Source: Astropecten irregularis (Eukaryota; Echinodermata; Asteroidea; Paxillosida; Astropectinidae). From it: DNA of 64,000 bases. Each line of letters opens with the position of its first letter. Within the stretch, counting starts at the first letter, position 1. The translations under genes and the position numbers were made by a program. The stretch is taken from NCBI GenBank assembly GCA_963971285.1, contig OZ020246.1:11825217-11889216 (forward strand), written 5' to 3'. This document shows positions 1 to 23,079 of the stretch, one piece after another. The notes below the pieces were generated by a model. It was given only the letters and a program-made list of their open reading frames with translations, ran no database searches and had not been told where the DNA came from.

Positions 1-3000
1 AAGCGCAGTTTTTTTGCCGCCTACTCTGCCGTTTTGTCGCATAGCGTGTGGTGCTATACTTGGATTTTCGGCCATGAACATGACTTTGGAATTTGGCACA
101 GTTCATACTTTCCTGTAGAGTACATCTGGGGCTACATTTCGTGCAAGTTTCAGCTCGATTGCCTCTGTATTGAGGGAGAAATTTCAAACTCTAACAGAAA
201 AAAGTATCTCATAGTCTAAGTGCAGGGTTTTTTTTGCCGCGTGCTCTGCCGTTTTATCGCATAGCGTGTGGTGCTATACTTGGATTTTCGGCCATGAACA
301 TGACTTTGGAATTTGGCACAGCTCATACTTTCCTGAAGAGTACATGTGGGGCTACATTTCGTGCAAGTTTCAGCTCGATTGCCTAAGTATTGAGGGAGAA
401 AATTCGAACTCTAGCAGAAAAAAGTGTCTCATAGTCTAAGTGCAGTTTTTCTGCCGACTGCTCTGCCGTTTTGTCGCATAGCGTGTGGTGCTATACTTGG
501 ATTTTCGGCCATGAACATGACTTTGGAATTTGGCACTGCTCATACTTTCCTGTAGAGTACATCTGGGGCTACATTTCGTGCAAGTTTCAGCTCGATTGCC
601 TCAGTATTGAGGGAGAAATTTCAAACTCTAGCAGAAAAAAGTGTCTCCTAGTCTAAGTGCAGTTTTTCTGCCGACTGCTCTGCCGTTTTGTCGCATAGCG
701 TGTGGTGCTATACTTGGATTTTCGGCCATGAACATGACTTTGGAATTTGGCACAGCTCATACTTTCCTGTAGAGTACATCTGGGGCTACATTTCGTGCAA
801 TTTTCAGCTCGATTACCTAAGTATTGAGGGAGAAATTTCAAACTCTAGCAGAAAAAAGTGTCTCATAGTCTAAGTGCAGTTTTTCTGCCGACTGCTCTGC
901 CGTTTTGTCGCATAGCGTGTGGTGCTATACTTGGATTTTCGGCCATGAACATGACTTTGGAATTTGGCACAGCTCATACTTTCCTGTAGAGTACATCTGG
1001 GGCTACATTTCGTGCAATTTTCAGCTCGATTGCCTCAGTATTGAGGGAGAAATTTCAAACTCTAGCAGAAAAAGTGTCTCCTAGTCTAAGTGCAGTTTTT
1101 TTGCCGACTGCTCTGCCGTTTGTCGCATAGCGTGTGGTGCTATACTTGGATTTTCGGCCATGAACATGACTTTGGAATTTGGCACTGCTCATACTTTCCT
1201 GTAGAGTACATCTGGCGCTACATTTCGTGCAAGTTTCAGCTCGATTGCCTCTGTATTGAGGGAGAAATTTCAAACTCTAACAGAAAAAAGTGTCTCATAG
1301 TCTAAGTGCAGGGTTTTTTTTGCCGCGTGCTCTGCCGTTTTGTCGCATAGCGTGTGGTGCTATACTTGGATTTTCGGCCATGAACATGACTTTGGAATTT
1401 GGCACAGCTCATACTTTCCTGTAGAGTACATCTGGGGCTACATTTCGTGCAATTTTCAGCTCGATTGCCTCAGTATTGAGGGAGAAATTTCAAACTCTAG
1501 CAGAAAAAGTGTCTCCTAGTCTAAGTGCAGTTTTTTTGCCGACTGCTCTGCCGTTTGTCGCATAGCGTGTGGTGCTATACTTGGATTTTCGGCCATGAAC
1601 ATGACTTTGGAATTTGGCACTGCTCATACTTTCCTGTAGAGTACATCTGGGGCTACATTTCGTGCAAGTTTCAGCTCGATTGCCTCTGTATTGAGGGAGA
1701 AATTTCAAACTCTAACAGAAAAAAGTGTCTCATAGTCTAAGTGCAGGGTTTTTTTTGCCGCGTGCTCTGCCGTTTTGTCGCATAGCGTGTGGTGCTATAC
1801 TTGGATTTTCGGCCATGAACATGACTTTGGAATTTGGCACAGCTCATACTTTCCTGTAGAGTACATCTGGGGCTACATTTCGTGCAAGTTTCAGCTCGAT
1901 TGCCTCAGTATTGAGGGAGAAATTTCAAACTCTAGCAGAAAAAAGTGTCTCATAGTCTAAGTGCAATTTTTCTGCCGACTGCTCTGCCGTTTTGTCGCAT
2001 AGCGTGTGGTGCTATACTTGGATTTTCGGCCATGAACATGACTTTGGAATTTGGCACTGCTCATACTTTCCAGTAGAGTACATCTGGGGCTACATTTCGT
2101 GCAAGTTTCAGCTCGATTGCCTCAGTATTGAGGGAGAAATTTCAAACTCTAGCAGAAAAAAGTGTCTCCTAGTCTAAGCGCAGTTTTTTTGCCGCCTGCT
2201 CTGCCGTTTGTCGCATAGCGTATGGTGCTATACTTGGATTTTCGGCCATGAACATGACTTTGGAATTTGGCATTGCTCATACTTTCCTGTAGAGTACATC
2301 TGGGGCTACATTTCGTGCAAGTTTCAGCTCGATTGCCTCTGTATTGAGGGAGAAATTTCAAACTCTAGCAGAAAAAAGTGTCTCCTAGTCTAAGCGCAGT
2401 TTTTTTGCCGCCTGCTCTGCCGTTTGTCGCATAGCGTGTGGTGCTATACTTGGATTTTCGGCCATGAACATGACTTTGGAATTTGGCACAGCTCATACTT
2501 TCCTGTAGAGTACATCTGGGGCTACATTTCGTGCAAGTTTCAGCTCGATTACCTAAGTATTGAGGGAGAAATTTCAAACTCTAGCAGAAAAAAGTGTCTC
2601 ATAGTCTAAGTGCAGTTTTTCTGCCGACTGCTCTGCCGTTTTGTGGCATAGCGTGTGGTGCTATACTTGGATTTTCGGCCATGAACATGACTTTGGAATT
2701 TGGCACAGCTCATACTTTCCTGTAGAGTACATCTGGGGCTACATTTCGTGCAAGTTTCAGCTCGATTACCTCAGTTTTGAGGGAGAAATTTCAAACTCTA
2801 GCAGAAAAAATTGTCTCCTAGTCTAAGCGCAGTTTTTTTGCCGCCTACTCTGCCGTTTTGTCGCATAGCGTGTGGTGCTATACTTGGATTTTCGGCCATG
2901 AACATGACTTTGGAATTTGGCACAGTTCATACTTTCCTGTAGAGTACATCTGGGGCTACATTTCGTGCAAGTTTCAGCTCGATTGCCTCTGTATTGAGGG

Positions 3001-6000
3001 AGAAATTTCAAACTCTAACAGAAAAAAGTATCTCATAGTCTAAGTGCAGGGTTTTTTTTGCCGCGTGCTCTGCCGTTTTATCGCATAGCGTGTGGTGCTA
3101 TACTTGGATTTTCGGCCATGAACATGACTTTGGAATTTGGCACAGCTCATACTTTCCTGAAGAGTACATGTGGGGCTACATTTCGTGCAAGTTTCAGCTC
3201 GATTGCCTAAGTATTGAGGGAGAAAATTCGAACTCTAGCAGAAAAAAGTGTCTCATAGTCTAAGTGCAGTTTTTCTGCCGACTGCTCTGCCGTTTTGTCG
3301 CATAGCGTGTGGTGCTATACTTGGATTTTCGGCCATGAACATGACTTTGGAATTTGGCACTGCTCATACTTTCCTGTAGAGTACATCTGGGGCTACATTT
3401 CGTGCAAGTTTCAGCTCGATTGCCTCAGTATTGAGGGAGAAATTTCAAACTCTAGCAGAAAAAAGTGTCTCCTAGTCTAAGTGCAGTTTTTCTGCCGACT
3501 GCTCTGCCGTTTTGTCGCATAGCGTGTGGTGCTATACTTGGATTTTCGGCCATGAACATGACTTTGGAATTTGGCACAGCTCATACTTTCCTGTAGAGTA
3601 CATCTGGGGCTACATTTCGTGCAATTTTCAGCTCGATTACCTAAGTATTGAGGGAGAAATTTCAAACTCTAGCAGAAAAAAGTGTCTCATAGTCTAAGTG
3701 CAGTTTTTCTGCCGACTGCTCTGCCGTTTTGTCGCATAGCGTGTGGTGCTATACTTGGATTTTCGGCCATGAACATGACTTTGGAATTTGGCACAGCTCA
3801 TACTTTCCTGTAGAGTACATCTGGGGCTACATTTCGTGCAATTTTCAGCTCGATTGCCTCAGTATTGAGGGAGAAATTTCAAACTCTAGCAGAAAAAGTG
3901 TCTCCTAGTCTAAGTGCAGTTTTTTTGCCGACTGCTCTGCCGTTTGTCGCATAGCGTGTGGTGCTATACTTGGATTTTCGGCCATGAACATGACTTTGGA
4001 ATTTGGCACTGCTCATACTTTCCTGTAGAGTACATCTGGCGCTACATTTCGTGCAAGTTTCAGCTCGATTGCCTCTGTATTGAGGGAGAAATTTCAAACT
4101 CTAACAGAAAAAAGTGTCTCATAGTCTAAGTGCAGGGTTTTTTTTGCCGCGTGCTCTGCCGTTTTGTCGCATAGCGTGTGGTGCTATACTTGGATTTTTG
4201 GCCATGAACATGACTTTGGAATTTGGCACAGCTCATACTTTCCTGTAGAGTACATCTGGGGCTACATTTCGTGCAAGTTTCAGCTCGATTGCCTCAGTAT
4301 TGAGGGAGAAATTTCAAACTCTAGCAGAAAAAAGTGTCTCATAGTCTAAGTGCAATTTTTCTGCCGACTGCTCTGCCGTTTTGTCGCATAGCGTGTGGTG
4401 CTATACTTGGATTTTCGGCCATGAACATGACTTTGGAATTTGGCACTGCTCATACTTTCCTGTAGAGTACATCTGGGGCTACATTTCGTGCAAGTTTCAG
4501 CTCGATTGCCTCAGTATTGAGGGAGAAATTTCAAACTCTAGCAGAAAAAAGTGTCTCCTAGTCTAAGCGCAGTTTTTTTGCCGCCTGCTCTGCCGTTTGT
4601 CGCATAGCGTATGGTGCTATACTTGGATTTTCGGCCATGAACATGACTTTGGAATTTGGCATTGCTCATACTTTCCTGTAGAGTACATCTGGGGCTACAT
4701 TTCGTGCAATTTTCAGCTCGATTGCCTCAGTATTGAGGGAGAAATTTCAAACTCTAGCAGAAAAAGTGTCTCCTAGTCTAAGTGCAGTTTTTTTGCCGAC
4801 TGCTCTGCCGTTTGTCGCATAGCGTGTGGTGCTATACTTGGATTTTCGGCCATGAACATGACTTTGGAATTTGGCACTGCTCATACTTTCCTGTAGAGTA
4901 CATCTGGCGCTACATTTCGTGCAAGTTTCAGCTCGATTGCCTCTGTATTGAGGGAGAAATTTCAAACTCTAACAGAAAAAAGTGTCTCATAGTCTAAGTG
5001 CAGGGTTTTTTTTGCCGCGTGCTCTGCCGTTTTGTCGCATAGCGTGTGGTGCTATACTTGGATTTTTGGCCATGAACATGACTTTGGAATTTGGCACAGC
5101 TCATACTTTCCTGTAGAGTACATCTGGGGCTACATTTCGTGCAAGTTTCAGCTCGATTGCCTCAGTATTGAGGGAGAAATTTCAAACTCTAGCAGAAAAA
5201 AGTGTCTCATAGTCTAAGTGCAATTTTTCTGCCGACTGCTCTGCCGTTTTGTCGCATAGCGTGTGGTGCTATACTTGGATTTTCGGCCATGAACATGACT
5301 TTGGAATTTGGCACTGCTCATACTTTCCTGTAGAGTACATCTGGGGCTACATTTCGTGCAAGTTTCAGCTCGATTGCCTCAGTATTGAGGGAGAAATTTC
5401 AAACTCTAGCAGAAAAAAGTGTCTCCTAGTCTAAGCGCAGTTTTTTTGCCGCCTGCTCTGCCGTTTGTCGCATAGCGTATGGTGCTATACTTGGATTTTC
5501 GGCCATGAACATGACTTTGGAATTTGGCATTGCTCATACTTTCCTGTAGAGTACATCTGGGGCTACATTTCGTGCAAGTTTCAGCTCGATTGCCTCTGTA
5601 TTGAGGGAGAAATTTCAAACTCTAGCAGAAAAAAGTGTCTCCTAGTCTAAGCGCAGTTTTTTTGCCGCCTGCTCTGCCGTTTGTCGCATAGCGTGTGGTG
5701 CTATACTTGGATTTTCGGCCATGAACATGACTTTGGAATTTGGCACAGCTCATACTTTCCTGTAGAGTACATCTGGGGCTACATTTCGTACAAGTTTCAG
5801 CTCGATTACCTCAGTATTGAGGGAGAAATTTCAAACTCTAGCAGAAAAAAGTGTCTCATAGTCTAAGTGCAGTTTTTCTGCCGACTGCTCTGCCGTTTTG
5901 TGGCATAGCGTTTGGTGCTATACTTGGATTTTCGGCCATGAACATGACTTTGGAATTTGGCACAGCTCATACTTTCCTGTAGAGTACATCTGGGGCTACA

Positions 6001-6897
6001 TTTCGTGCAAGTTTCAGCTCGATTACCTCAGTATTGAGGGAGAAATTTCAAACTCTAGCAGAAAAAATTGTCTCCTAGTCTAAGCGCAGTTTTTTTGCCG
6101 CCTACTCTGCCGTTTGTCGCATAGCGTGTGGTGCTATACTTGGATTTTCGGCCATGAACATGACTTTGGAATTTGGCACAGCTCATACTTTTATTTAGAG
6201 TACATATGGGGCTACATTTCGTGCAAGTTTCAGCTCGATTGCCTCTGTATTGAGGGAGAAATTTCAAACTCTAACAGAAAAAAATGTCTCATAGTCTAAG
6301 TGCAGGGTTTTTTTTGCCGCGTGCTCTGCCGTTTTGTCGCATAGCGTGTGGTGCTATACTTGGATTTTCGGCCATGAACATGACTTTGGAATTTGGCACT
6401 GCTCATACTTTCCTGTAGAGTACATCTGGGGCTACATTTCGTGCAAGTTTCAGCTCGATTGCCTCAGTATTGAGGGAAAAATTTCAAACTCTAGCAGAAA
6501 AAAGTGTCTCATAGTCTAAGTGCAGGGTTTTTTCTGCCGACTGCTCTGCCGTTTTGTCGCATAGCCTGTGGTGCTATACTTGGATTTTCGGCCATGAACA
6601 TGACTTTGGAATTTGGCACAGCTCATACTTTCCTGTAGAGTACATCTGGGGCTACATTTCGTGCAAGTTTCAGCTCGATTGCCTAAGTATTGAGGGAGAA
6701 ATTTCGAACTCTAGCAGAAAAAAGTGTATCTAGGTCTAAGTGCAGTTTTTATGGCGCCTGCTCCATTGCTTTCTCGCATAGCGTGTGGTGCTATACTTGG
6801 ATTTTCGGCCATGAACATGACTTTAGAATTTAGCGCAGCCAATACTATCCTGTAAAGTACATCTGGGGCTACATTTCGTGCAAGTTTCAGCTCTACT
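1..6897. repeat. Satellite A: about 217-bp tandem repeat, about 32 monomers
   Basis: Monomers recur every 216-218 bp (for example 471, 688, 905; 1775, 1992, 2208, 2424, 2641, 2858), each carrying a variable T-run, then gccg..ctctgccgtttt, gtcgcatagcgtgtggtgc and a phrase ending in a run of A. Monomers differ by a few substitutions and by T- and A-run length. The array enters from the left edge, so its true length is unknown. Frames of 61-72 codons are open on both strands in most monomers, but the plus-strand one starts at TTG, 217 is not a multiple of three, and neither strand links monomers into a longer frame; I read them as chance. No similarity to satellites B, C or D was seen. Confidence 0.97.
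6725..6897. repeat. Decayed terminal monomer of satellite A
   Basis: The last monomer carries many private changes: gtatctaggt for gtgtctcata, atggcgcctgctccattgc in place of the usual ctctgccgtttt block, ttagaatttagcgcagcc for the ttggaatttggcacagct block. It stops abruptly after cagctct. Higher divergence at an array edge is expected when exchange homogenises the interior but not the border. Confidence 0.85.
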
Positions 6898-7140
6898 ACA
6901 CAGTTATTAGTAATATAACTTGTATACATTATTTTGATGATTAAATCAAGCTGATATCAAACAGGCGACCCAATGAGGGCGCTATTTTGTCAGTTCCCCT
7001 TGTGGATTTTGATGATAAGAAAAACTCATGGAAAAACTTATAAATGGAAAATCCGACTCAATGAGGGCGCTATTTTGTTAGTCCACTAATGATTACAAAA
7101 AACTGATATAAAACACTGACCAATGAGGGCGCTATTTTGT
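6898..7140. repeat. Three short direct repeats (caatgagggcgctattttgt)
   Basis: The 20-mer caatgagggcgctattttgt occurs exactly at 6971-6990, 7059-7078 and 7121-7140, separated by unrelated A/T-rich sequence. A related form (gcatgagggcgctattgttgt) lies near 26644, again just upstream of the homologous repeat block. The remainder of this stretch shows no gene. The motif could be a short tandem part of a dispersed element; its role is unknown. Confidence 0.8.
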
Positions 7141-7352
7141 AAACAAACTTTCTCAAGATGGACACCACTGCCATGTGGGAGAACAGCACAAAAATTTTGA
7201 GAAAAAATTTGTCTCCTTTCTTGCCCAGGACGAAGCAGATCTGGCAATTTCCAGGTGAGATTGGTCTTGGGTTGACTATAGATTATCTTGAATACATTTT
7301 TAGCTCAGGACGAAGTATTTTTGTAGCTTTTTTGCAGTAGATTTTAAAAGCT
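7121..7352 (+). repeat. Dispersed repeat unit, left block, copy 1
   Basis: This block aligns with 26644-26880: both have gagggcgctatt..tgtaaacac/a, an ATG-containing A/T-rich stretch, tttcttgccc or tttcctgccc, then ttccaggtgag, a shared gattatcttRaatacaYttt phrase and agctca..acga. The ttccag|gtgag step looks like a splice donor in both copies. From the ATG at 7158 a 32-codon frame is open up to that donor in copy 1, but copy 2 has an in-frame stop, so coding is not supported. Best read as part of a mobile or duplicated element. Confidence 0.65.
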
Positions 7353-7600
7353 GTCTGACAGTCAGTGAATGACAAGTTGACAACACACTTAGTTACTTGT
7401 CACTAGCTATGTTGTCTTCATCGTGAGCAACTTAGAACAACTCGCAGCCAGGATTGAGGTTTAAAATAGCCCTTTTCTTATTCCAAAAGCACTTGGAATA
7501 TTTTACCGACGCTCCCTTTGGAACAATAGCACAATTCAAAACACTGTGTTCGCTGAGACAAAATAATGTGTGACAATCTTGCCAGCATTTTCTAGTGCAG
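7353..7600. other. No recognisable feature
   Basis: I see no open frame, repeat or RNA motif here. It separates the two blocks of dispersed repeat copy 1 and has no obvious counterpart between the matching blocks near 26.9-29.7 kb. Confidence 0.5.
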
Positions 7601-8446
7601 GGAGTCGACAGTGCATGAGTGTACCTGTGTGCAGTACAGTTATTTACATGTATGTTGCATGCGTGTTGAGTGCCATTTGTTGTGTCGGGGTTAGTGTAGT
7701 TTACACCACTCGTATTATTTTCAGTATTTATTTAGCTTCTACCATAAACTAACTCACCTGAATACGTTACTTGTGGTGTCCTCTTCAATGTCTGCAAGCT
7801 TAAATTTGTGGAAAGAGGGCAGGGCTTTGATTTTTGAGGGAAATTATGGGGTAAAACGGTATAAAGGCGATGCGACATATTTTGCAGACGAAATGCTTAG
7901 CTTAGCTGTAGAAATTCTGGTTTCCGCCCTTATTTCGATGAGCCTTGATGTGTTGGGTCTGGTACCAGACTAACTGGACCAGATCATCGGTGATTGGCTG
8001 CTGAAAAAGTTACCTGGTAAATCCCGCTTTGTGATTGGTCGAGAGTGTCATAGACTTTACCAGAGGGAGTAAGGTTATTATTTTGCACAGGTAGTTCGTG
8101 TCAAAATGGCGTAAACGCGACTGAAAAGCTGTGTTCAACTTCGCAATAAGTGGGTAAGGAAACCTTCTTTTTTCACTGGAATATTGCCGAAATATGTTCA
8201 TTTTAGGGTTTACAGGACCCATGAATATTTGCTTTAAGTAACAAATCTCATTTTGGAACTGTAGAAGCTAAATAAATACTGAAAATAATACGAGTGGTGT
8301 AAACTACACTAACCCCGTTGTGTCTCTGTCCTTATCTTATCTTTGCCTCGGAACTAAAAACACCTGGCAATATTAAGCTTGCTCTGATAAAACAAGGATA
8401 CGACTATCAGCAGTTTGCATGAGGTTTGTTAATCATGGTAACTCTC
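7601..8446 (+). repeat. Dispersed repeat unit, right block, copy 1 (split by a MITE)
   Basis: 7601-7686 plus 8317-8446 align with 29672-29871: gagtcgacagtgcatg, gttgcatgcgtgttgagtgc, tttgcctcggaactaaaa, acacctggcaatattaagc and gtttgcatgaggtttg all match in order. Copy 1 is interrupted at 7687-8316 by an inverted-repeat element that copy 2 lacks. The homology ends at ggtaactctc in both copies; copy 1 then runs directly into a satellite C fragment. Confidence 0.9.
7687..8316. mobile_element. 630-bp MITE with perfect 56-bp terminal inverted repeats
   Basis: Left end 7687-7742 starts ggggttagtgtagtttacac; right end 8261-8316 is its exact reverse complement over all 56 bp. The element is flanked by identical gttgtgtc copies at 7679-7686 and 8317-8324, and the homologous empty site at 29742-29749 has a single gttgtgtc, which proves insertion with an 8-bp target duplication. 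No transposase frame is present, so it is non-autonomous. An 8-bp duplication fits hAT, Merlin or P superfamilies; the GGGG terminus does not settle which. Perfect ends suggest recent mobility. The interior (7743-8260) shows only small frames. Confidence 0.95.
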
Positions 8447-8785
8447 AACTTGTCATGCAAGGATTTTTGTGTAATTTGAGGCCATTTTGTTCGTGACTGA
8501 AACTTCAAAAAATGTATGTGGTCCCCCACATGAGTTTTTTTGAATTTTGCCCAAAAACTGACTTTTTTCAGAAATGCGCGCTATCTTCCTCATAGGTCGC
8601 TATGACTACCAGGAACCATTTCGAACAAAAAAATGCCAATCAACTTGTCATGCAAGGATTTTTGTGTAATTTGAGGTCATTTTGTTCGTGACTGAAACTT
8701 CAAAAATTTTATGTGGTCCCCCACATGAGTTTTTTTGATTTTTGCCCCAAAACTGACTTTTTTCAGAAATGCGCGCTATCTTCCT
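8447..8785 (+). repeat. Isolated satellite C fragment (about 1.7 monomers)
   Basis: The sequence from aacttgtcatgcaaggattt to gcgcgctatcttcct matches satellite C of 30980-64000 in the same orientation, including the gtggtcccccac hairpin twice and the ttttttcagaaatgcgcgc block. It begins and ends in mid-monomer and lies 22 kb from the main array. The left junction falls exactly at the end of dispersed repeat copy 1. Confidence 0.95.
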
Positions 8786-9314
8786 GGTCTAGCTCATTAA
8801 ACTCGCCGTGCTTAAGAGCACACATCCGTCCAGTCTGCAGAATCACGGCCTCCTTGGCAACCGCAGACTCTCCGTGCGGAACGCAGACTTCCTGCAGAAT
8901 AACGCGCAGTCAATTTTGAGAAGGCGCCTTACTGTTTTTATGCTCCTGTGCGGCGGACAAGGCATGCCGTAACTGTGCAATACCCTCTGACCCATCCAGT
9001 CCTTTAATGGGCCGTCTGCATTGAGAATCTACAATCCATTTTGTTTCATTCATTTTCCTCTTTCTTTATTTGACAGTTACAATGGACAAAAACGGTTCAG
9101 CTACCTTCAAATATCAGGATAACCAGCCTGTTCACCTATGAACTGGAGAGGGCGCTAGTTGCTGACAAGCTTGATAGGATCATCCATCGTTAAAGGATTT
9201 GCCATCTGTGTTACATGAGAGAACGTCAATCTGAACCATCTGCAGGTAAGGATGTTTCCATATCAACATCTGCATGTATGATTTACAGCGGTTGCTAATG
9301 GGGTTGCCGTAGAC
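8786..9314. other. Unique sequence between satellite C fragment and minisatellite
   Basis: Mixed-composition DNA with no repeat seen. The only suggestive element is an exon-like interval at 9077-9245, listed separately. Confidence 0.5.
9077..9245 (+). other. Weak candidate exon
   Basis: A pyrimidine-rich acceptor (tttctttatttgacag) precedes 9077 and a donor (ctgcag|gtaagg) follows 9245. In the frame starting at 9077, 38 codons are open, including TSLFTYELERALVADKLDRI, before a TAA at 9191-9193; the rest of that frame is open to the donor. I recognise no family. The stop means it is not a plain internal coding exon as read; it may be untranslated, decayed or accidental. Confidence 0.2.
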
Positions 9315-9942
9315 AGTGTCTGTCTCCCTCTAGTAATCATGATGAGTCAGGTATTGCCACTCAAGTGAGTGTCTGTCTCCTTCTAGTAATCATCGTGAGT
9401 CAGGTATTGCCACTCAAGTGAGTGTCTGTCTCCCTCTAGTGATCATGATGAGTCAGGTATTGCCACTCAAGTAAGTGTCTGTCTCCTTCTAGTAATCATC
9501 GTGAGTCAGGTATTGCCACTCAAGTGAGTGTCTGTCTCCTTCTAGTAATCATCGTGAGTCAGGTATTGCCACTCAAGTGAGTGTCTGTCTCCTTCTAGTA
9601 ATGATTGTGAGTCAGGTATTGCCACTCAAGTGAGTGTCTGTCTCCTTCTAGTAATCATCGTGAGTCAGGTATTGCCACTCAAGTGAATGTCTGTCTCCTT
9701 CTAGTAATGATCGTGAGTCAGGTATTGCCACTCAAGTGAGTGTCTGTCTCCTTCTAGTAATCATCGTGAGTCAGGTATTGCCACTCAAGTGAATGTCTGT
9801 CTCCTTCTAGTAATGATCGTGAGTCAGGTATTGCCACTCAAGTGAGTGTCTGTCTCCTTCTAGTAATCATCGTGAGTCAGGTATTGCCACTCAAGTGAGT
9901 GTCTGTCTCCTTCTAGTAATCATCGTGAGTCAGGTATTGCCC
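9315..9942. repeat. 53-bp minisatellite, about 12 copies
   Basis: Units start at 9315, 9368, 9421, 9474 and every 53 bp to 9898; the last is truncated. Each reads agtgtctgtctcc(t/c)tctag, then taatcat or taatgat, gtgagtcaggtattgccact and caagtg. Units differ at a handful of positions (cat/gat, cgt/tgt, gagt/gaat), and an alternation of cat and gat types suggests a two-unit higher-order pattern in 9580-9897. Satellite B begins within about 20 bp of its right end. Confidence 0.97.
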
Positions 9943-9959
9943 ACTGATCTATACAAAAG

Positions 9960-12900
9960 ATCTAATCTGACATCGGACTTGCTTGAAATATATCAAAATT
10001 TCGCATTATCATCACGGGTCAAAAAGGGGATGTTTTCACCAGGTCCGGACCTGATAGCCAGGGGTCCCGGGTGCGAAACCCGAAACTTCATAAATTGTTT
10101 TCCAGACATTGAAAAATTTAATCTGACATCGGACTCGCTTGAAATATATCAAAATTTGGCATTATCATCACGGGTCAAAAAGTGGATGTTTTCACCAGGT
10201 CCGGACCTGATAGCCATCGGCCATTTTTCACCAGGTCCGGACCTGATAGCCAGGGGGTGCCTGGTGCGATATCCGAAACTTCATAATTTTTTTTTCCTGA
10301 CACTAAAAAATCTAATCTGACATTGGACTCGCTTGAAATATATCAAAATTTGGCATTATCATCACGGGTCAAAAAGTGGATGTTTTCACCAGGTCCGGAC
10401 CTGATAGCCATCGGCCATTTTTCACCAGGTCCGGACCTGATAGCCAGAGGTCCCAAGTGCAAAACCCGAAACTTCATAAATTGTTTTCCAGACATTGAAA
10501 AATCTAATCTGACATGGGACTCGCTTGAAATACATCAAAATTTGGCATTATCATCACTGGTCAAAAAGTGGATGTTTCCACCAGGTCCGGACCTGATAGC
10601 CATCAGCCATTTTTCACCAGGTCCTGATAGCCAGGGGTCCCGGGTGCGATATCCGAAACTTCATAATTTTTTTTCCTGACACTAAAAAATCTAATCTGAC
10701 ATTGGACTCGCTTGAAATATAACAAAATTTGGCATTATCATCACGGGTCAAAAAGTGGATGTTTTCACCTGATAGCCATAGGCCATTTTTCACCAGGTCC
10801 GGACCTGATAGCCAGGGGGTCCCGGGTGCGAAACCCGAAACTTCATAAATTTTTTTCCAGACATTGAAAAATCTAATCTGACATCGGACTCGCTTGAAAT
10901 ATATCAAAATTTGGCATTATCATCACGGGTCAAAAAGTGGATGTTTTCACCAGGTCCGGACCTGATAGCCATCGGCCATTTTTCACCAGGTCCGGACCTG
11001 ATAGCCAGGGGTCCCAGGTGCGAAACACAAAACTTCATAAATTTTTTTCCAGACATTAAAAAATCTAATCTGACATCGGACTCGCTTGAAATATATCAAA
11101 ATTTGGCTATATCATCACGGGTCAAAAAGTGGATGTTTTCACCAGGTCCGGACCTGATAGCCATCGGCCATTTTTCACCAGGTCCGGACCTGATAGCCAG
11201 GGGTCCCAGGTGCAAAACCCGAAACTTCATAATTTTTTTTTCCAGACATTAAAAAATCTAATCTGACATTGGACTCGCTTGAAATATATCAAAATTTGGC
11301 ATTATCATCACAGGTCAAAAAGTGGATGTTTTCACCAGGTCCGGACCTGATAGCCATCGGCCATTTTTCACCAGGTCCGGACCTGATAGCCTGGGGTCCC
11401 TGGTGCGATATCCGAAACTTCATAATTTTTTTTCCAGACATTTAAAAATCTAATCTGACATCGGACTCGCTTGAAATATATCAAAATTTGGCATTATCAT
11501 CACGGGTCAAAAAGTGGATGTTTTCACCAGGTTCGGACCTGATAGCCATCGGCCATTTTTCACCAGGTCTGGACCTGATAGCCAGGGGTCCTGGGTGCGA
11601 GATCCGAAACTTTATAAATTTTTTTCCAGACATTAAAAAATCTAATCTGACATTGGACTCGCTTGAAATATATCAAAATTTGGCATTATCATCACAGGTC
11701 AAAAAGTGGATGTTTTCACCAGGTCCGGACCTGATAGCCATCGGCCATTTTTCACCAGGTCCGGACCTGATAGCCAGGGGTCCCGGGTGCGAAACCCGAA
11801 ACTTCATAATTTTTTTTCCAGACATTAAAAAATCTAATCTGACATCGGACTCGCTTGAAATATATCAACATTTGGCATTATCATCACGGGTCAAAAAGTA
11901 GATGTTTTCACCAGGTCCCTACCTGATAGCCATCGGCCATTTTTCACCAGGTCCGGACCTGATAGCCAGGGGTCCCGGGTGCGATATCCGAATCTTCATA
12001 AATTTTTTTCCTGACACTAAAAAATCTAATCTGACATTTGACTCGCTTGAAATATAACAAAACTTGGCATTATCATCACGGGTCAAAAAGTGGATGTTTT
12101 CACCTGATAGCCATCGGCCATTTTTCACCAGGTCCGGACCTGATAGCCAGAGGTCCCGGGTGCGAAACCCGAACTTCATAATTTTTTTCCAGACATTAAA
12201 AAATCTAATCTGACATCTGACTCGCTTGAAATATATCAAAATTTGGCATTATCATCACAGGTCAAAAAGTGGATGTTTTCACCAGGTCCGGACCTGATAG
12301 CCATCGGCCATTTTTCACCAGGTCCGGACCTGATAGCCAGGGGTCCTGGGTGCGATATCCGAAACTTCATAATTTTTTTTCCTGACACTAAAAAATCTAA
12401 TCTGACATTGGACTCGCTTGAAATATAACAAAATTTGGCATTATCATCACGGGTCAAAAAGTGGATGTTTTCACCTGATAGCCATCGGCCATTTTTCACC
12501 AGGTCCGGACCTGATAGCCAGGGGGTCCCGGGTTCGAAACCCGAAACTTCATAAATTTTTTTCCAGACATTGAAAAATCTAATCTGACATCTGACTCGCT
12601 TGAAATATATCAAAATTTGGCATTATCATCACGGGTCAAAAAGTGGATGTTTTCACCAGGTCCGGACCTGATAGCCATCGGCCATTTTTCACCAGGTCCG
12701 GACCTGATAGCCAGAGGTCCCGGGTGCGAAACCCGAACTTCATAATTTTTTTTCCAGACATTGAAAAATCAAATCTGACATCGGACTCGCTTGAAATATA
12801 TCAAAATTTGGCATTATCATCACGGGTCAAAAAGTGGATGTTTTCACCATGTCCAGACCTGATAGCCATTGGCCATTTTTCACCAGGTCCGGACCTGATA

Positions 12901-15900
12901 GCCAGGGGGTCCCTGGTGCGATATCCGAAACTTCATAATTTTTTTTTCCTGACACTAAAAAATCTAATCTGACATTGGACTGGCTTGAAATATATCAAAA
13001 TTTGGCATTATCATCACGGGTCAAAAAGTGGATGTTTTCACCAGGTCCGGACGTGATAGCCATCGGCCATTTTTCACCAGGTCCGGACCTGATAGCCTGG
13101 GGTCCCGGGTGCGAAACCCGAAACTTCATAATTTTTTTTCCAGACATTTAAAAATCTAATCTGACATCGGACTCGCTTGAAATATATCAAAATTTGGCAT
13201 TATCATCACGGGTCAAAAAGTGGATGTTTTCACCAGGTTCGGACCTGATAGCCATCGGCAATTTTTCACCAGGTCTGGACCTGATAGCCAGGGGTCCTGG
13301 GTGCGAGATCCGAAACTTTATTAATTTTTTTCCAGACATTAAAAAATCTAATCTGACATTGGACTCGCTTGAAATATATCAAAATTTGGCATTATCATCA
13401 CAGGTCAAAAAGTGGATGTTTTCACCAGGTCCGGACCTGATAGCCATCGGCCATTTTTCACCAGGTCCGGACCTAATAGCCAGGGGTCCCGGGTGCGAAA
13501 CCCGAAACTTCATAATTCTTTTTTCCAGACATTAAAAAATCTAATTTGACATCGGACTCGCTTGAAATATATCAACATTTGGCATTATCATCACGGGTCA
13601 AAAAGTAGATGTTTTCACCAGGTCCCTACCTGATAGCCATCGGCCATTTTTCACCAGGTCCGGACCTGATAGCCAGGGGTCCCGGGTGCGATATCCGAAT
13701 CTTCATAAATTTTTTTCCTGACACTAAAAAATCTAATCTGACATTGGACTCGCTTGAAATATAACAAAATTTGGCATTATCATCACGGGTCAAAAAGTGG
13801 ATGTTTTCACCTGATAGCCATCGGCCATTTTTCACCAGGTCCGGACCTGATAGCCAGAGGTCCCGGGTGCGAAACCCGAACTTCATAATTTTTTTTCCAG
13901 ACATTGAAAAATCAAATCTGACATCGGACTCGCTTGAAATATATCAAAATTTGGCATTATCATCACGGGTCAAAAAGTGGATGTTTTCACCATGTCCAGA
14001 CCTGATAGCCATCGGTCATTTTTCACCAGGTCCGGACCTGATAGCCAGGGGTCCCGGGTGCGAGATCCGAAACTTCATAATTTTTTTTCCAGACATTAAA
14101 AAATCTAATCTGACATCGAACTCACTTGAAATATATCAAAATTTGGCATTATCTTCATTGGTCAAAAAGTGGATGTTTTCACCAGGTCCGGACCTGATAG
14201 CCATCGGCCATTTTTCACCAGGTCCGGACCTGATAGCCAGGGGTCCCAGGTGCGAAACCCGAAACTTCATAAATTTTTTTTCCAGACATTAAAAAATCTA
14301 ATCTGACATTGGACTCGCTTGAAATATATCAAAATTTGGCATTATCATCACAGGTCAAAAAGTGGATGTTTTCACCAGGTCCGGACCTGATAGCCAGGGG
14401 TCCTGGGTGCGATATCCGAAACTTCATAATTTTTTTTCCTGACACTAAAAAATCTAATCTGACATTGGACTCGCTTGAAATATAACAAAATTTGGCATTA
14501 TCATCACGGGTCAAAAAGTGGATGTTTTCACCTGATAGCCATCGGCCATTTTTCACCAGGTCCGGACCTGATAGCCAGGGGGTCCCGGGTTCGAAACCCG
14601 AAACTTCATACATTTTTTTCCAGACATTGAAAAATCTAATCTGACATCTGACTCGCTTGAAATATATCAAAATTTGGCATTATCATCACAGGTCAAAAAG
14701 TGGATGTTTTCACCAGGTCCGGACCTGATAGCCATCGGCCATTTTTCACCAGGTCCGGACCTGATAGCCAGGGGTCCTGGGTGCGATATCCGAAACTTCA
14801 TAATTTTTTTTCCTGACACTAAAAAATCTAATCTGACATTGGACTCGCTTGAAATATAACAAAATTTGGCATTATCATCACGGGTCAAAAAGTGGATGTT
14901 TTCACCTGATAGCCATCGGCCATTTTTCACCAGGTCCGGACCTGATAGCCAGGGGGTCCCGGGTTCGAAACCCGAAACTTCATAAATTTTTTTCCAGACA
15001 TTGAAAAATCTAATCTGACATCTGACTCGCTTGAAATATATCAAAATTTGGCATTATCATCACGGGTCAAAAAGTGGATGTTTTCACCAGGTCCGGACCT
15101 GATAGCCATCGGCCATTTTTCACCAGGTCCGGACCTGATAGCCAGAGGTCCCGGGTGCGAAACCCGAACTTCATAATTTTTTTTCCAGACATTGAAAAAT
15201 CAAATCTGACATCGGACTCGCTTGAAATATATCAAAATTTGGCATTATCATCACGGGTCAAAAAGTGGATGTTTTCACCATGTCCAGACCTGATAGCCAT
15301 CGGTCATTTTTCACTAGGTCCGGACCTGATAGCCAGGGGGTCCCTGGTGCGATATCCGAAACTTCATAATTTTTTTTCCAGACATTAAAAAATCTAATCT
15401 GACATCGAACTCACTTGAAATATATCAAAATTTGGCATTATCTTCATTGGTCAAAAAGTGGATGTTTTCACCAGGTCCGGACCTGATAGCCATCGGCCAT
15501 TTTTCACCAGGTCCGGACCTGATAGCCAGGGGTCCCAGGTGCGAAACCCGAAACTTCATACATTTTTTTTCCAGACATTAAAAAATCTAATCTGACATTG
15601 GACTCGCTTGAAATATATCAAAATTTGGCATTATCATCACGGGTCAAAAAGTGGACGTTTTCACCTGATAGCCATCGGCCATTTTTCACCAGGTCCGGAC
15701 CTGATAGCCAGAGGTCCCGGGTGCGAAACCCGAACTTCATAATTTTTTTTCCAGACATTGAAAAATCAAATCTGACATCGGACTCGCTTGAAATATATCA
15801 AAATTTGGCATTATCATCACGGGTCAAAAAGTGGATGTTTTCACCATGTCCAGACCTGATAGCAATCGGTCATTTTTCACCAGGTCCGGACCTGATAGCC

Positions 15901-18388
15901 AGGGGTCCCGGGTGCGAGATCCGAAACTTCATAATTTTTTTTCCAGACATTAAAAAATCTAATCTGACATCGAACTCACTTGAAATATATCAAAATTTGG
16001 CATTATCTTCATTGGTCAAAAAGTGGATGTTTTCACCAGGTCCGGACCTGATAGCCATCGGCCATTTTTCACCAGGTCCGGCAGGTGCGAAACCCGAAAC
16101 TTCATAAATTTTTTTTCCAGACATTAAAAAATCTAATCTGACATTGGACTCGCTTGAAATATAACAAAATTTGGCATTATCATCACGGGTCAAAAAGTGG
16201 ATGTTTTCACCTGATAGCCATCGGCCATTTTTCACCAGGTCCGGACCTGATAGCCAGGGGGTCCCGGGTTCGAAACCCGAAACTTCATAAATTTTTTTCC
16301 AGACATTGAAAAATCTAATCTGACATCTGACTCGCTTGAAATATATCAAAATTTGGCATTATCATCACAGGTCAAAAAGTGGATGTTTTCACCAGGTCCG
16401 GACCTGATAGCCATCGGCCATTTTTCACCAGGTCCGGACCTGATAGCCAGGGGTCCTGGGTGCGATATCCGAAACTTCATAATTTTTTTTCCTGACACTA
16501 AAAAATCTAATCTGACATTGGACTCGCTTGAAATATATCAAAATTTGGCATTATCATCACAGGTCAAAAAGTGGATGTTTTCACCAGGTCCGGACCTGAT
16601 AGCCATCGGCCATTTTTCACCAGGTCCGGACCTGATAGCCAGGGGTCCTGGGTGCGATATCCGAAACTTCATAATTTTTTTTCCTGACACTAAAAAATCT
16701 AATCTGAAATTGGACTCGCTTGAAATATATCAAAATTTGGCATTATCATCACGGGTCAAAAAGTGGATGTTTTCACCAGGTCCGGACCTGATAGCCATCG
16801 GCCATTTTTCACCAGGTCCGGACCTGATAGCCAGAGGTCCCGGGTGCGAAACCCGAACTTCATAATTTTTTTTCCAGACATTGAAAAATCAAATCTGACA
16901 TCGGACTCGCTTGAAATATATCAAAATTTGGCATTATCATCACGGGTCAAAAAGTGGATGTTTTCACCATGTCCAGACCTGATAGCCATCAGTCATTTTT
17001 CACTAGGTCCGGACCTGATAGCCAGGGGGTCCCTGGTGCGATATCCGAAACTTCATAATTTTTTTTCCAGACATTAAAAAATCTAATCTGACATCGAACT
17101 CACTTGAAATATATCAAAATTTGGCATTATCTTCATTGGTCAAAAAGTGGATGTTTTCACCAGGTCCGGACCTGATAGCCATCGGCCATTTTTCACCAGG
17201 TCCGGACCTGATAGCCAGGGGTCCCAGGTGCGAAACCCGAAACTTCATACATTTTTTTTCCAGACATTAAAAAATCTAATCTGACATTGGACTCGCTTGA
17301 AATATATCAAAATTTGGCATTATCATCACGGGTCAAAAAGTGGATGTTTTCACCAGGTCCGGACCTGATAGCCATCGGCCATTTTTCACCAGGTCCGGAC
17401 CTGATAGCCAGGGGGTCCCGGGTGCGAAACCCAAAACTTCATATATTTTTTTCCAGACATTGAAAAATCTAATCTGACATCGGACTCGCTTGAAATATAT
17501 CAAAATTTGGCTATATCATCACGGGTCAAAAAGTGGATGTTTTCACCAGGTCCGGACCTGATAGCCATCGGCCATTTTTCACCAGGTCCGGACCTGATAG
17601 CCAGGGGTCCCAGGTGCGAAACCCGAAACTTCATAAATTTTTTTTCCAGACATTAAAAAATCTAATCTGACATTGGACTCGCTTGAAATATATCAAAATT
17701 TGGCATTATCATCACGGGTCAAAAAGTGGATGTTTTCATCAGGTCCGGACCTGATAGCCATCGGCCATTTTTCACCAGGTCCGGACCTGATAGCCAGGGG
17801 TCCCGGGTGCGATATCCGAAACTTCATAATTTTTTTTCCAGACATTGAAAAATCTAATCTGACATCGGACTCGCTTGAAATATATACAAATTTGGCATTA
17901 TCATCACGGGTCAAAAAGTGGATGTTTTCACCAGGTCCGGACCTGATAGCCATCGGCCATTTTTCACCAGGTCCGGACCTGATAGCCAGGGGTCCCGGGT
18001 GCGAGATCCGAAACTTCATAATTTTTTTTCCAGACATTGAAAAATATAATCTGACATCAGACTCGCTTGAAATATATCAAAATTTGGCATTATCATCAAG
18101 GGTCAAAAAGTGGATGTTTTCACCAGGTCCGGACCTGATAGCCATGGGTCCTGGGTGCGAGACCCGAAACCGCATAATTTTTTTTCCCGACATTAAAAAA
18201 TCTAATCTGACATCGGACTCGCTTGAAATATATCGACATTTGGCATTATCATCTCCGGTCAAAAAGTGGGAGTTTTCACCAGGTCCGGACCTGATAGCCA
18301 ACGGCCAGTTTTTACCAGGTCCAGACCCGATAGCCAGGGGTCCCAGGTTTGTTTGAGACCCAGAGCGGCAGGATTTTTTTCCCAGATT
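9960..18388 (+). repeat. Satellite B: about 193-bp tandem repeat, about 43 monomers
   Basis: The phrase ctaatctgacatcggactcg recurs about every 193 bp. Each monomer then has cgcttgaaatatatcaaaat, ggcattatcatcacgggtc, aaaaagtggatgttttcacc, usually two copies of ttcaccaggtccggacctga about 36 bp apart, then a stem-loop cccgggtgcgaaacccg and a T-run. Some monomers carry only one of the two inner copies (about 155 bp). Block-scale duplication is visible: 12236-12613 recurs at 14667-15044 (offset 2431) and 12643-12972 is followed by relatives at 15074 and 16763. Frames up to 227 codons run through several monomers where the T-run makes the period 192; both strands show this and no family is recognisable. 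Confidence 0.97.
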
Positions 18389-18796: not shown

Positions 18797-18939
18797 GTCT
18801 GAAAACTTATTTCATCTATAATTTTGTCTTTTCAGAATTTGCTAGAAAACTAGAAAAAAAAAGCCAGTGGATCCATGGAATATTATGGCAGGCTGTCAAG
18901 GTCTGGATCTAAATCATCGCACAGGTATGATGTCTAAAT
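18797..18939. other. Short unique segment
   Basis: Contains an acceptor-like ttgtcttttcag at about 18823-18835 and a donor-like cacag|gtatga near 18924, but every frame between them has a stop. No feature is called. Confidence 0.4.
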
Positions 18940-19061
18940 CTTTTCCCAGATTCAAAAAAAAAAATTCGACACCATACTCGCTTGAAATATATCAAAATTT
19001 TGCATTATTGTCACGGGTCAAAAAGTTGCAGTTTTCACCAGCTCCGGATCCGAGAGCCACT
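18940..19061 (+). repeat. Relic of satellite B
   Basis: The segment holds ttttcccagattc, a run of A, cacc/atactcgcttgaaatata, catta..gtcacgggtcaaaa and ttttcacc-agctccggatcc, in satellite B order but with many substitutions, including loss of the perfect ggtccggacc palindrome. It is a single diverged monomer outside the array, in the same orientation as satellite B and opposite to the 96-bp array between them. Confidence 0.85.
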
Positions 19062-19100
19062 GTTTGACACTTGAATCGAAAAAATCGAACTTTGGATTTT

Positions 19101-19141
19101 CGACTTGTTATGTCTTGTTGTGACTTGTAATGACTTATGGT
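19101..19141 (+). repeat. Relic of satellite D decamers
   Basis: Four degenerate ttgtRRtgac-like units (cttgttatgt, cttgttgtga, cttgtaatga, cttatgg). The main decamer array starts 1.8 kb to the right, so this is a detached or ancestral piece. Confidence 0.65.
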
Positions 19142-19149
19142 GTTTTATT

Positions 19150-19203
19150 AGCTGTTTCGCATGCAGCGAGACAGCTTTTGTTTTTCTTATTTTTGTTTTT
19201 CTT

Positions 19204-19234
<31 letters not shown>
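19150..19234. repeat. Short hairpin plus poly(T) tract
   Basis: 19150-19176 is a near-perfect palindrome (agctgtttcgc / gcgagacagct). It is followed by T-rich sequence ending in an uninterrupted T-run of about 26 at 19209-19234. This could be the end of a mobile element; no family is assigned. Confidence 0.6.
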
Positions 19235-19289
19235 CTTTTTCCACTTTTTTCCCATAGACATAACACAGGGGTTTTCTAAGAGCCACTTC

Positions 19290-19718
19290 TACCATTATGC
19301 CAATTCCAATCAACTTCATACTTGGCACGTAGTTAGACCAACACCCCGAATAGTGTCCCGCATATGTACGTCATCGTGACGTCATCACGTGCACAGTTAC
19401 GTAATCATAAAAGTGCAAATTTTAGGGCTCTTTATCTCCGGAACGGCAAGTCCGATGCAACTCAAACTTGGTATGTAAGTATATGGGGACGTGTTATAGA
19501 CAAAAATTGCAGTCACGTGTTGATGACGTCATCGTGCGATTTTATACGAATTATTCAATTTTTTGACCTTTTCTTTATATCTCATGAACGACAAATCGTA
19601 TTTTCGAAATTCTTTCGGTAAAATATTTGTTAGGCTATAGGCACATGCCACAAAATACCAAAAAGTAGTGACGTCATGATGACGTCATCAAAAAGCCGAT
19701 TTTCTGATTCACATATAA
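19290..19718 (+). repeat. Diverged 130-150-bp tandem repeat with CRE palindromes, left part
   Basis: About three units, each with a phrase like tccgatgcaactcaaacttgg, then one or two TGACGTCA octamers and a gccgatttt-like tail. Perfect TGACGTCA copies are at 19377-19384, 19524-19531, 19669-19676 and 19680-19687. The units are old: only short blocks are conserved. The array is cut at about 19719 by an inverted-repeat insertion and resumes at about 20251. Confidence 0.75.
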
Positions 19719-20250
19719 GGGATTATATAACACCTTAGTAGATCCTTGTCATTTGATTGGAGGATTGTATGTCACGTGATATGTGATAAATAGACCAATT
19801 CATGGCTTACGTCACAACCGTTGAAATTTGTACCATCCACCGTGCATTTTTGGTGCCATCCGATTTGTACCATTGCACGCCAGGGACTCTAATACGTGAT
19901 TGGTCAAGCGGCGTTCCATTTATTTGTCACTGCGTGCGCGCGTACGCGTTGGTGTGCAACGCGCGTTTCTGTAATAAGAGCATAAAGTTTGCCAAGATTT
20001 TAAGCTTTTTTTGTCTCGCTAACTCTTAAAATGTTATCCTCCAATCAAAATCAAATGACAAAGATCTACTTAGATGTTATATAAAACAAATAATGAATGT
20101 TTCACATTCGTAGAATGGTAAAAATAATTTCATTCGGTGACAGATGGACTGTTCCATTCCACTCGGCTTCGCCTCGTGAAATGGAACAGTCCATCTGTCA
20201 CCTCATGAAATTATTTTTACCATTCCACTCATAAACATTCATTATTTGTA
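19719..20250. mobile_element. 0.5-kb inverted-repeat insertion in the CRE repeat
   Basis: Comparison with the uninterrupted junction at 20392-20412 (cacatataagcgaatatctg) shows that the sequence between cacatataag (19709-19718) and aatatccgatgg (about 20252) is inserted. Inside, 19723-19765 and 20036-20084 form an inverted repeat starting ttatataacacc/ttatataacatc and including tcatttgatt; the right arm carries 6 extra bases. A second, tighter palindrome (20086-20249) abuts the right arm. The ends of the whole insertion, ggattatataac and gtataatatcc, are also roughly inverted. No transposase frame. The exact target duplication is unclear. Confidence 0.75.
20086..20249. repeat. Long hairpin palindrome with a ggcttcgcc centre
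   Basis: Left arm 20086-20158 and right arm 20180-20249 are inverted copies (acaaataatgaatgttt, ggtaaaaataatttcat, cagatggactgttccatt) with a few mismatches. The centre, actcggcttcgcctcgtg, is itself partly self-complementary. This is a fold-back MITE, probably nested beside the inverted repeat at 19723-20084. Confidence 0.9.
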
Positions 20251-20540
20251 TAATATCCGATGGTGATGAAACTTGGTGGATAGGTAGGGAATGGTACTAG
20301 TATCCTAAATCTGAAGTGACGTCACGATGACGTTCTCGGCTGATTTTTTATTGATTTTTGAATATTTAATTTTGCCATTTTTTCCCAGAAACACATATAA
20401 GCGAATATCTGATCGTAATGAAACTTGGTGGATAGGTAGGAAATGGTATTAGTATCCCTAATGTGAAGTGACGTCATGATGATGTCATCGGCTGATTTTT
20501 TATTGAATTTTTTAATAATTAATTCGGCCATTTAGAGTCA
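20251..20540 (+). repeat. CRE-containing repeat, right part (two tandem units)
   Basis: Units at about 20252-20395 and 20408-20535 share gatgaaacttggtggatagg, tagtatcc, gaagtgacgtca and ggctgattttttattga. Perfect TGACGTCA octamers are at 20317-20324 and 20469-20476. The second octamer of the pair is degraded to tgacgttc and tgatgtca. These two units are much more alike than the units left of the insertion. Confidence 0.88.
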
Positions 20541-20937
20541 AACATAACACAAAACACGGGCTTTGGAACTTTTTGGACCGCTGATATGGCTATCTGAAGT
20601 AGTGGCACAATTGTATACACGTGAATGGAGCACGACGAGCTAGAAAATGAATCATTTTGCTGTTTCCACTGCCCATAAGCACAACCATACATACTATGCA
20701 CGTTGGCCTATAGTAGACTTGTGTATTGCCACGTGTATGTATATGTATCAGTATACATACATAATGTGTATTGATGGACAAGTGACGACGCTCCTGATAG
20801 TTGTTAACGGCAATGAAGACACCACTGATTTGCTTTTTTCTGTACTGGGCCAATTGCGTTCATGTTTATTTTTCATATTATTTATAAAACATACGCGAAA
20901 CAGCTCAGTGTTTGTCAACAAACACAGGTCTAGTTTT
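20541..20937. other. No supported gene
   Basis: Frames of about 90-100 codons are open on both strands here but overlap each other, match no family I know, and the minus-strand one continues into the decamer array. Contains a small cacgtgtatgtatatgtatc / gtatacatacata alternating stretch near 20731-20765. Confidence 0.4.
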
Positions 20938-21714
20938 GACTTGAGGTGACTTGTGATGACTTGAGTTGACTTGTGGTGACTTGTGATGACTTGTGGTGAC
21001 TTGTGGTGACTTGTGATGACTTGAGTTGACTTGTGGTGACTTGTGATGACTTGTGGTGACTTGAGGTGACTTGTGGTGACTTGTGGTGACTTGAGTTGAC
21101 TTGTGATGACTTGAGTTGACTTGTGATGACTTGTGGTGACTTGTGGTGACTTGTGGTGACTTGAGTTGACTTGTGGTGACTTGTGGTGAGTTGTGGTGAC
21201 TTGTGGTGACTTGTGGTGACTTGAGTTGACTTGTGATGACTTTTGGTAACTTGTGATGACTTGTGGTGACTTGTGGTGACTTGTGATGACTTGTGGTGAC
21301 TTGAGTTGACTTGTGGTGACTTGTGGTGACTTGTGGTGACTTGAGTTAACTTGAGTTGACTTGTGATGACTTGTGGTGACTAGTGGTGACTTGTGTTGCC
21401 CTCTGGTGACTTGTGGTGACTTGAGTTGACATGAGTTGACTTGTGATGACTTGTGGTGACTTGAGGTGACTTGTAGTGACTTGAGGTGACTTGTAGTGAC
21501 TTGAGGTGACTTGTAGTGACTTGAGGTGACTTGTGGTGACTTGAGTTGACTTGAGTTGACTTGTGATGACTTGAGTTGACATGTGGTGACTTGTGGTGAC
21601 TTGTTGTGACTTGTGGTGACTTGTAGTGAGTTGTAGTGACTTGAGGTGACTTGTGATGACTTGTGGTGACTTGTGTTGCCCTCTGGTGACTTGTGTTGCC
21701 CTCTGGTGACTTTT
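20938..21714 (+). repeat. Satellite D: decamer array (ttgtggtgac)n, about 77 units
   Basis: From 20941 to 21710 the sequence is an unbroken series of 10-bp units without one insertion or deletion. Nearly all follow ttg(t/a)(g/t/a)(g/a/t)tgac; variation is concentrated at unit positions 4-6. Combinations such as ttgtgatgac + ttgagttgac + ttgtggtgac recur as higher-order words. The array is interrupted by ttgtgttgcc ctctggtgac at about 21391-21410 and twice more at 21671-21710. On the minus strand all frames stay open (SHHKSPQVTT-like repeats), giving a 346-codon ATG frame across 20748-21788; that follows from the stop-free decamer and is not evidence of a gene. Confidence 0.97.
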
Positions 21715-21839
21715 GATGAGTCAATAACCAGCTGTGGCAAGACTCCAACAAACACAAGTTTTGTGGGTATTTGTTTATACTGTACCATTTCATTTGGAGG
21801 AAATTATAGTTTTCCTCTGACTTTTGTACTGATTTGCAG

Positions 21840-22075
21840 GGTGATCGCTGTTGCACTGTCTAGACTCCGGACAACCCGTTCACCTGTATAAAAACCACCT
21901 ACTATGTGAACAAGCCCGGTATGAGGATGGATTACATCTTGTATGATACCAGGACCGGATTGCCGAGTGACTTGCCTTGAGAGTAGCCTGATACTGGCCA
22001 GCATACCATGGACAAACATACACTACTCAGACCACACAGGTGTGGAAGCCCTCTTTGAAATGCAGAAGATCAAAG
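21840..22075 (+). pseudogene. SMPD2: Neutral sphingomyelinase (SMPD2/nSMase1-like) exon, disrupted
   Basis: Neutral sphingomyelinases cleave sphingomyelin to ceramide and phosphocholine at membranes and belong to the endonuclease/exonuclease/phosphatase fold. A strong acceptor (ctgacttttgtactgatttgcag) ends at 21839 and a donor (aaag|gtcagt) follows 22075. One frame (21864-21977) reads TPDNPFTC...GMRMDYILYDTRTG, matching the NxYx..G-RIDYVLYK segment of SMPD2; codons MDY are at 21927-21935. The next frame (21921-22075) reads IPWTNIHYSDHTGVEALFEM, matching the SDH block; the catalytic histidine codon is 22033-22035. A +1 shift near 21960-21977 separates the two parts, and a TAG at 21861-21863 lies in frame between the acceptor and TPDN. 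Two breaks in a short exon suggest a decaying copy, although a one-base assembly error could explain the shift and an alternative acceptor at 21863 the stop. N-terminal exons of the domain are not visible in this window. The family call rests on remembered motifs, not a search. Confidence 0.62.
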
Positions 22076-22109
22076 GTCAGTCCTATATCATTAGTTTTTA
22101 TTGAAAGGT

Positions 22110-22236
22110 GAACAAAGAAAAATTGACTGGAGTGGGATTTGAACGTATGACCTCCTGAGTGCCGTACAGGCGCTCTACCAACTGATCTATCCAGCCGTAT
22201 GTTGGTGGTTTCCCTCATAGTCAATTATCTTTGTTC
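22110..22236 (-). mobile_element. tRNA-like sequence inside an 18-bp inverted repeat
   Basis: Minus strand 22196-22125 is 72 nt long and folds as a tRNA: acceptor stem ggctgga/tccagtc pairs 7 of 7 (one G-U), D-arm tagatcagttggtagagc resembles a Pol III A box, anticodon stem cctgt/tcagg pairs 4 of 5, and ttcaaatcc resembles a B box. The T stem (atacg/cccac) pairs only about 2 of 5 and the loop lacks T33, so it is not a functional tRNA. It is bracketed by gaacaaagaaaaattgact (22110-22128) and agtcaattatctttgttc (22219-22236), inverted copies differing by about one base. It lies just inside the intron after the SMPD2-like exon. Confidence 0.75.
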
Positions 22237-22501
22237 GTTTGGCAGTCAGAAGCCATGAAACCATGCACATAGGCCTACTGCTTCAGTCAGTTTCCCTTGT
22301 GGTTATTTGATGAGTATATAATTATTTTTATATTATATTTGTACATCAGTTGAGCTGAGCCTTGGTCTGAACTATGCAAACCTGTTTTATGGTTTTATTA
22401 TTTATAATTATTTCAATATTTATTGCAATCATGACCTGCAGTGAATATTGTCAAAGTGTTCAGTCAAGATTGTAAATTGAGCATTAAGTGAGTGAAATAA
22501 C

Positions 22502-22736
22502 CTGGAGCCAATTTCATTTAACTGCTAAGCACAAACATTTGCTTAGCACAAAAATGTCTTGCCCAATACAAAAGCAAACAACCATTAAAAGTTGCATTTG
22601 ATATTCATGGTCAATGAACAACAGCTAAAGAACAATCACAAGTGATACACAACACATTCAAATGTTTTTTTATTAAGACAGAAATGTCATGCTTAGCAAA
22701 TGTTTGTGCTAAGCAGCACCGTAAAATTGGCCCCTG
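22502..22736. mobile_element. 235-bp MITE with about 60-bp inverted ends (hAT-like)
   Basis: Left 22502-22560 and right 22676-22736 are inverted copies sharing gccaattt, ctgctaagcacaaacattt, gctaagca and aaatgtc. The outer end caggggccaatttt is of the CAGGG type seen in many hAT-derived short elements of invertebrates. No clear 8-bp target duplication remains, so it is probably old. It sits in the presumed intron between the two SMPD2-like exon candidates. Confidence 0.82.
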
Positions 22737-22859
22737 TTTATTGCTAATAGTGGCAAGGTTGAGAAGTATTGGTGTACAGCCAATACACAGTGTTTTCAGA
22801 AACAAGTTTTTTGGTTGTTCATCTTTCTCTGTTATTATTTCTTTGACTGAATACTGTAG

Positions 22860-23005: not shown

Positions 23006-23079
23006 TGTGGTTGTGGCTGGGTTGAGTCTTCCACTGTTGCACCAGCCGGTCTGCTCCTGTTTTGTGCTCTAGAGCTCTA

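Follow-up and report, generated by a model that had tools for sequence, protein, structure and literature searches.

Transposons of the Merlin superfamily are related to bacterial IS1016/IS1595, and their autonomous members carry an IS1595-type DDE transposase. They are described as having a conserved terminal 5′-GG-3′, terminal inverted repeats (TIRs) of 24–462 bp and duplications of 8 or 9 bp (PMC8101967), and Merlin-like MITEs, as described from Nosema, have 8-bp duplications and TIRs of 24–34 bp (PMC4405373). Duplications of 8–11 bp and TIRs of 14–500 bp are given for Mutator-like elements (MULEs; PMC6446971), and 8-bp duplications are also described for hAT (PMC2874221) and P (PMC1562414) elements. 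Within the 64-kb window, by which we mean the whole stretch of DNA analysed, there is at 7687–8316 what is almost certainly an inserted non-autonomous TIR transposon, for which the best superfamily match, by its end (GG), repeat length and duplication length, appears to be Merlin. The element and its related empty site have the following features.

7687–8316, no strand: non-autonomous DNA transposon, 630 bp (on the 8-bp-duplication reading; alternatively 7686–8317 with a 6-bp duplication)
7687–7742, + strand: left terminal inverted repeat, 56 bp, starting GGGG
8261–8316, − strand: right terminal inverted repeat, 56 bp, perfectly complementary to the left one
7679–7686, + strand: target-site duplication GTTGTGTC, left copy
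8317–8324, + strand: target-site duplication GTTGTGTC, right copy
7957–7970, no strand: 14-bp perfect palindrome GTCTGGTACCAGAC within the element
29670–29871, + strand: paralogous segment without the element, matching 7601–7686 and 8325–8446 (91.8% over 208 columns, BLAST)
29742–29749, + strand: lone GTTGTGTC in the paralogue, the related empty site

The arms at 7687–7742 and 8261–8316, which bound the 630 bp as perfect 56-bp TIRs, are complementary at 56 of 56 positions, or at 57 of 57 when the flanking C/G pair is counted. This bears out, with exact coordinates, the identity of the ends claimed in a preliminary description of this DNA, which had also correctly placed GTTGTGTC on both sides of the element, at 7679–7686 and 8317–8324. 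On its + strand the window has three copies of the octamer, the third being that at 29742–29749, and on its − strand none. When the window was searched with the outermost 25 bases of the TIR and up to three mismatches were allowed, the only matches were at the element's own two ends, against none expected from 100 shuffles, and identical 8-mers 630 bp apart were found at one of 14,200 start positions (6900–9999 and 18900–29999), which is the element itself. On these counts a chance origin of the paired ends and duplication was rejected. Folded as single-stranded DNA, the element gave a z of −9.6 against 20 shuffles, none of which was as stable (0/20), a far higher stability than that of the shuffles, as must follow from its long arms. 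The term MITE implies a high-copy family; the 64-kb window contains a single full copy of the element.

The joined flanks (7600–7686 plus 8325–8440) were aligned globally with the paralogue, giving 185 matches and 11 mismatches in 196 ungapped columns (5.6% mismatches), together with 12 gap columns, made up of one internal 6-base gap and six columns at the alignment ends. The preliminary description had called 29742–29749 the intact pre-insertion site, and it does hold one GTTGTGTC and no element; to judge from the alignment, however, it is a diverged paralogue about 22 kb away rather than the other allele. It is highly improbable that both paralogues were formerly filled and that the element was lost from 29742 by precise excision. 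Such excision is described as common in some MULEs, accounting for ∼90% of Muta1 revertants in yeast, with duplications flanking the element (PMC5225508), but 29742–29749 shows no trace of an earlier insertion and a never-filled site is the simpler reading, though precise excision would leave no trace either. Further, weaker paralogy, at 78–80%, joins 7100–7351, left of the element, to 26621–26880, upstream of a long inverted-repeat element described below, and both loci may therefore belong to one larger old duplication.

The borders of the element were scanned against the empty site. The left border was varied over 7680–7695, the right over 8308–8325 and the duplication over 0–14 bp, against the joined flanks and again against the paralogue's own letters, where 48 of 4,320 combinations were compatible. 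Within the range tested, both scans left only two symmetric readings: 7687–8316 with an 8-bp duplication and GGGG termini, and 7686–8317 with the 6-bp duplication TTGTGT and CGGGG...CCCCG termini, which fits the empty site equally well. There are two because the duplication starts with G and finishes with C, and the borders are thus fixed to within one base per end. The preliminary description had held that the filled and empty pair fixes both the borders and an 8-bp duplication; its 8-bp reading fits, but so does the symmetric 6-bp one. In this respect the locus illustrates how the length of a duplication with complementary outer bases can stay ambiguous when it is judged from a single filled/empty pair. 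We prefer the 8-bp reading because the 6-bp groups compared have other termini or no TIRs, whereas duplications of 8–9 bp with GG ends correspond to the description of Merlin.

It is very unlikely, in our view, that the borders are 7686–8317 and that the element falls in a different group, whether known or new. This is the sole other symmetric reading compatible with the empty site, yet the ambiguity itself is weak evidence, as by simple reasoning the outer bases would be complementary in about a quarter of duplications. Of the groups with 6-bp duplications, IS3EU and GingerRoot are described as terminating in TA or TG (PMC10045372), and Dada (6–7 bp) as having no TIRs and inserting in small RNA genes (PMC3706591), unlike this element with its 56-bp TIR; the sole Rfam match in the window, at 22124–22196, lies away from it. 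The range of 4–10 bp given for IS256/MuDR would still admit a 6-bp duplication (PMC10045372). IS3EU, GingerRoot, IS481EU and Dada were rejected by their termini or their absence of TIRs, as these are described (PMC10045372, PMC3706591), and the narrower proposition of 6-bp borders with CGGGG termini, in a family outside IS3EU, GingerRoot and Dada, is less probable again.

Fifteen frames of at least 30 residues touch the element, of which five cross a border and the 10 lying inside were scanned against Pfam. No match reached the curated cut-off in these 10 frames, and a coding element is unsupported by them. The best match, PARP_reg at 15.8 bits (E = 0.015; cut-off 26.8), we put down to chance. 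Between 18800 and 30980, where 10 of 116 listed frames of at least 45 residues were scanned, nothing reached the cut-off either (best E = 0.16), and in all of the scanned frames, the 10 inside the element and the 10 from 18800–30980, no transposase remnant was seen. The element carries on its + strand GATTGG at 7992 and 8033, AANATGGCG at 8103 and GGTAAG at 8153, and on its − strand CAGGTGAGT near 7760, motifs picked post hoc and without a control that could conceivably be leftovers of the promoter and splice sites of an autonomous parent. With terminal inverted repeats, a target-site duplication (8 or 6 bp) whose unfilled counterpart survives and no transposase coding by Pfam in the 10 frames inside it, the element has what defines a non-autonomous TIR DNA transposon.

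These features suggest how the locus may have arisen; the ends, the duplication and the empty site are seen in the sequence itself, and the action of a transposase in trans, the cut-and-paste mechanism and the membership of Merlin are inferred. A non-autonomous cut-and-paste DNA transposon would have entered one of two paralogous segments at GTTGTGTC, with 8 bp of the target duplicated on insertion and the other paralogue keeping its unfilled site. Because no protein domain was recognised in the element, its transposase was most likely supplied from elsewhere; this enzyme would bind both ends and excise the element, and would make staggered cuts in the target. Taken whole, as a non-autonomous cut-and-paste transposon with GTTGTGTC as target, 8 bp duplicated, an unfilled paralogue, a transposase acting in trans and membership of Merlin, we consider this account about evenly balanced between being right and being wrong in some part.

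The perfect ends set no more than an upper limit on divergence. If each arm had diverged by 2.7%, zero differences over 2 × 56 bases would have a probability of 0.047, which makes 2.7% per arm roughly the 95% ceiling, and the flanking paralogues, differing by 5.6%, have diverged by ∼2.8% per branch. Because the two values are close, the element may nearly match the paralogue split in age. The preliminary description had read the perfect ends as recent movement and had deduced that an autonomous partner probably exists in this genome; neither follows from ends that allow about 2.7% per arm, close to what each flank branch has accumulated, though such movement and a partner that is still alive are both possible.

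Exact TIR patterns found no match in two collections, neither of them eukaryotic (18 bases against viral contigs, 20 bases against genome contigs), a type of matching that would miss diverged relatives. Within the window, 27060–27089 on the − strand shares 26 of 30 bases with element positions 50–79 (E = 2e-4); when the element was shuffled 200 times with its dinucleotides kept, no shuffle reached that score. The match runs across the inner TIR boundary into the adjoining bases and is possibly a relic of a related element. No second copy with its own ends and duplication was recognised there.

About 79% of the window consists of tandem arrays, counting most of the detected arrays and two 195-bp units at 8445–8785. 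A 217-bp array ending at 6893 precedes the element, and these two units follow it, directly adjoining its right flank. The same 195-bp satellite fills 30983–64000 (169 copies, 96% matches) and reaches the end of the window, and 1–6893 and 10033–18300 are occupied by other satellites, with repeat lengths of 217 bp and 192/385 bp. The satellites, together with the lack of gene-like frames, suggest a eukaryotic host. At 27567–29670 there is a ∼2.1-kb element with long inverted ends, in stretches of 44 and 352 nt that are each 95% alike, for which no target duplication was recognised by eye. Base 29670 is both the last base of its right arm and the first of the homology to the empty-site segment. 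To its left are further inverted matches (27088–27100/27536–27548, 100%; 27041–27051/27556–27566, 91%), and 27041–27566 is perhaps an older, decayed element. The stretch at 22124–22196 on the − strand is tRNA-like (RF00005, 31.7 bits; not called by ARAGORN) and is perhaps a tRNA-derived SINE.

Which transposase mobilised the element was judged from the descriptions of superfamilies, and our weights are judgements rather than computed values. For non-autonomous elements, the rule given by Repbase asks for an equal duplication length and for positions 1–11 to align with no more than one mismatch (PMC4455052). Merlin membership we regard as an even call, a Mutator-like transposase as a distinctly weaker prospect but the strongest rival, and hAT or P as quite unlikely, with the rest going to other groups. 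The ends of hAT and P elements start with CA or TA, and hAT targets follow nTnnnnAn; the end of this element is GGGG, and GTTGTGTC departs from nTnnnnAn on both strands. The 8-bp duplication that both share with the element is set against TIRs that are shorter than its 56 bp, at 5–27 bp (PMC2874221) or 10–25 bp (PMC3942097) in the hAT elements described and 27–31 bp in the Anopheles P elements (PMC1562414). For Merlin, the 56-bp TIR falls within 24–462 bp, GGGG on the 8-bp reading fits the GG terminus as CGGGG on the 6-bp reading does not, and the duplication is 8 bp on the preferred reading, with 6 bp fitting the site too. The preliminary description had left the superfamily open among hAT, Merlin and P and had considered the GGGG terminus not diagnostic. 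Of these Merlin does fit best and hAT and P less well, and the GG is more informative than that, being described as conserved in Merlin (PMC8101967), but the list is incomplete because Mutator-like elements can give 8-bp duplications and perfect TIRs of similar length.

The same insertion could have been mobilised by a MULE transposase, as a Spectre element of an aphid has perfect 74-bp TIRs and an 8-bp duplication (PMC6446971), and the Aedes aegypti MULE families described have duplications of 8–9 bp in 14/14 cases and TIRs under 60 bp in 2/14 (PMC5225508). In those families, however, TIRs exceed 100 bp in 12/14 cases, with subterminal tandem repeats in 10/12 of these (PMC5225508), and no such repeats were found in the element. 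The 8-bp reading fits a MULE, and a 56-bp TIR is inside the 14–500 bp range, below the usual >100 bp; against this, GG ends are described as conserved in Merlin (PMC8101967).

The significance of the locus is mainly for annotation, as a defined element end could be used to retrieve the family and any autonomous partner from the host assembly. Among known systems, hAT elements and hAT MITEs resemble it in their 8-bp duplication and, for the MITEs, in being short and non-coding, but its TIR exceeds the lengths described for them and its terminal bases are unlike those of hAT. P elements and P MITEs share the 8-bp duplication and differ in TIR length, that of the element being longer than in the Anopheles set described. 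MULEs of the Spectre and Phantom/Muta groups also share that duplication on the 8-bp reading, and perfect TIRs of tens of bp exist among those described, yet the element has a shorter TIR than most of the Aedes families and no subterminal tandem repeats were found in it. Its TIR is longer than those described for the Merlin-like MITEs of Nosema. Compared by description rather than by sequence, the likeness to Merlin lies in the GG terminus, a TIR length within range and, on the preferred reading, the 8-bp duplication, and we regard the element as an ordinary representative of an already known kind of transposon.
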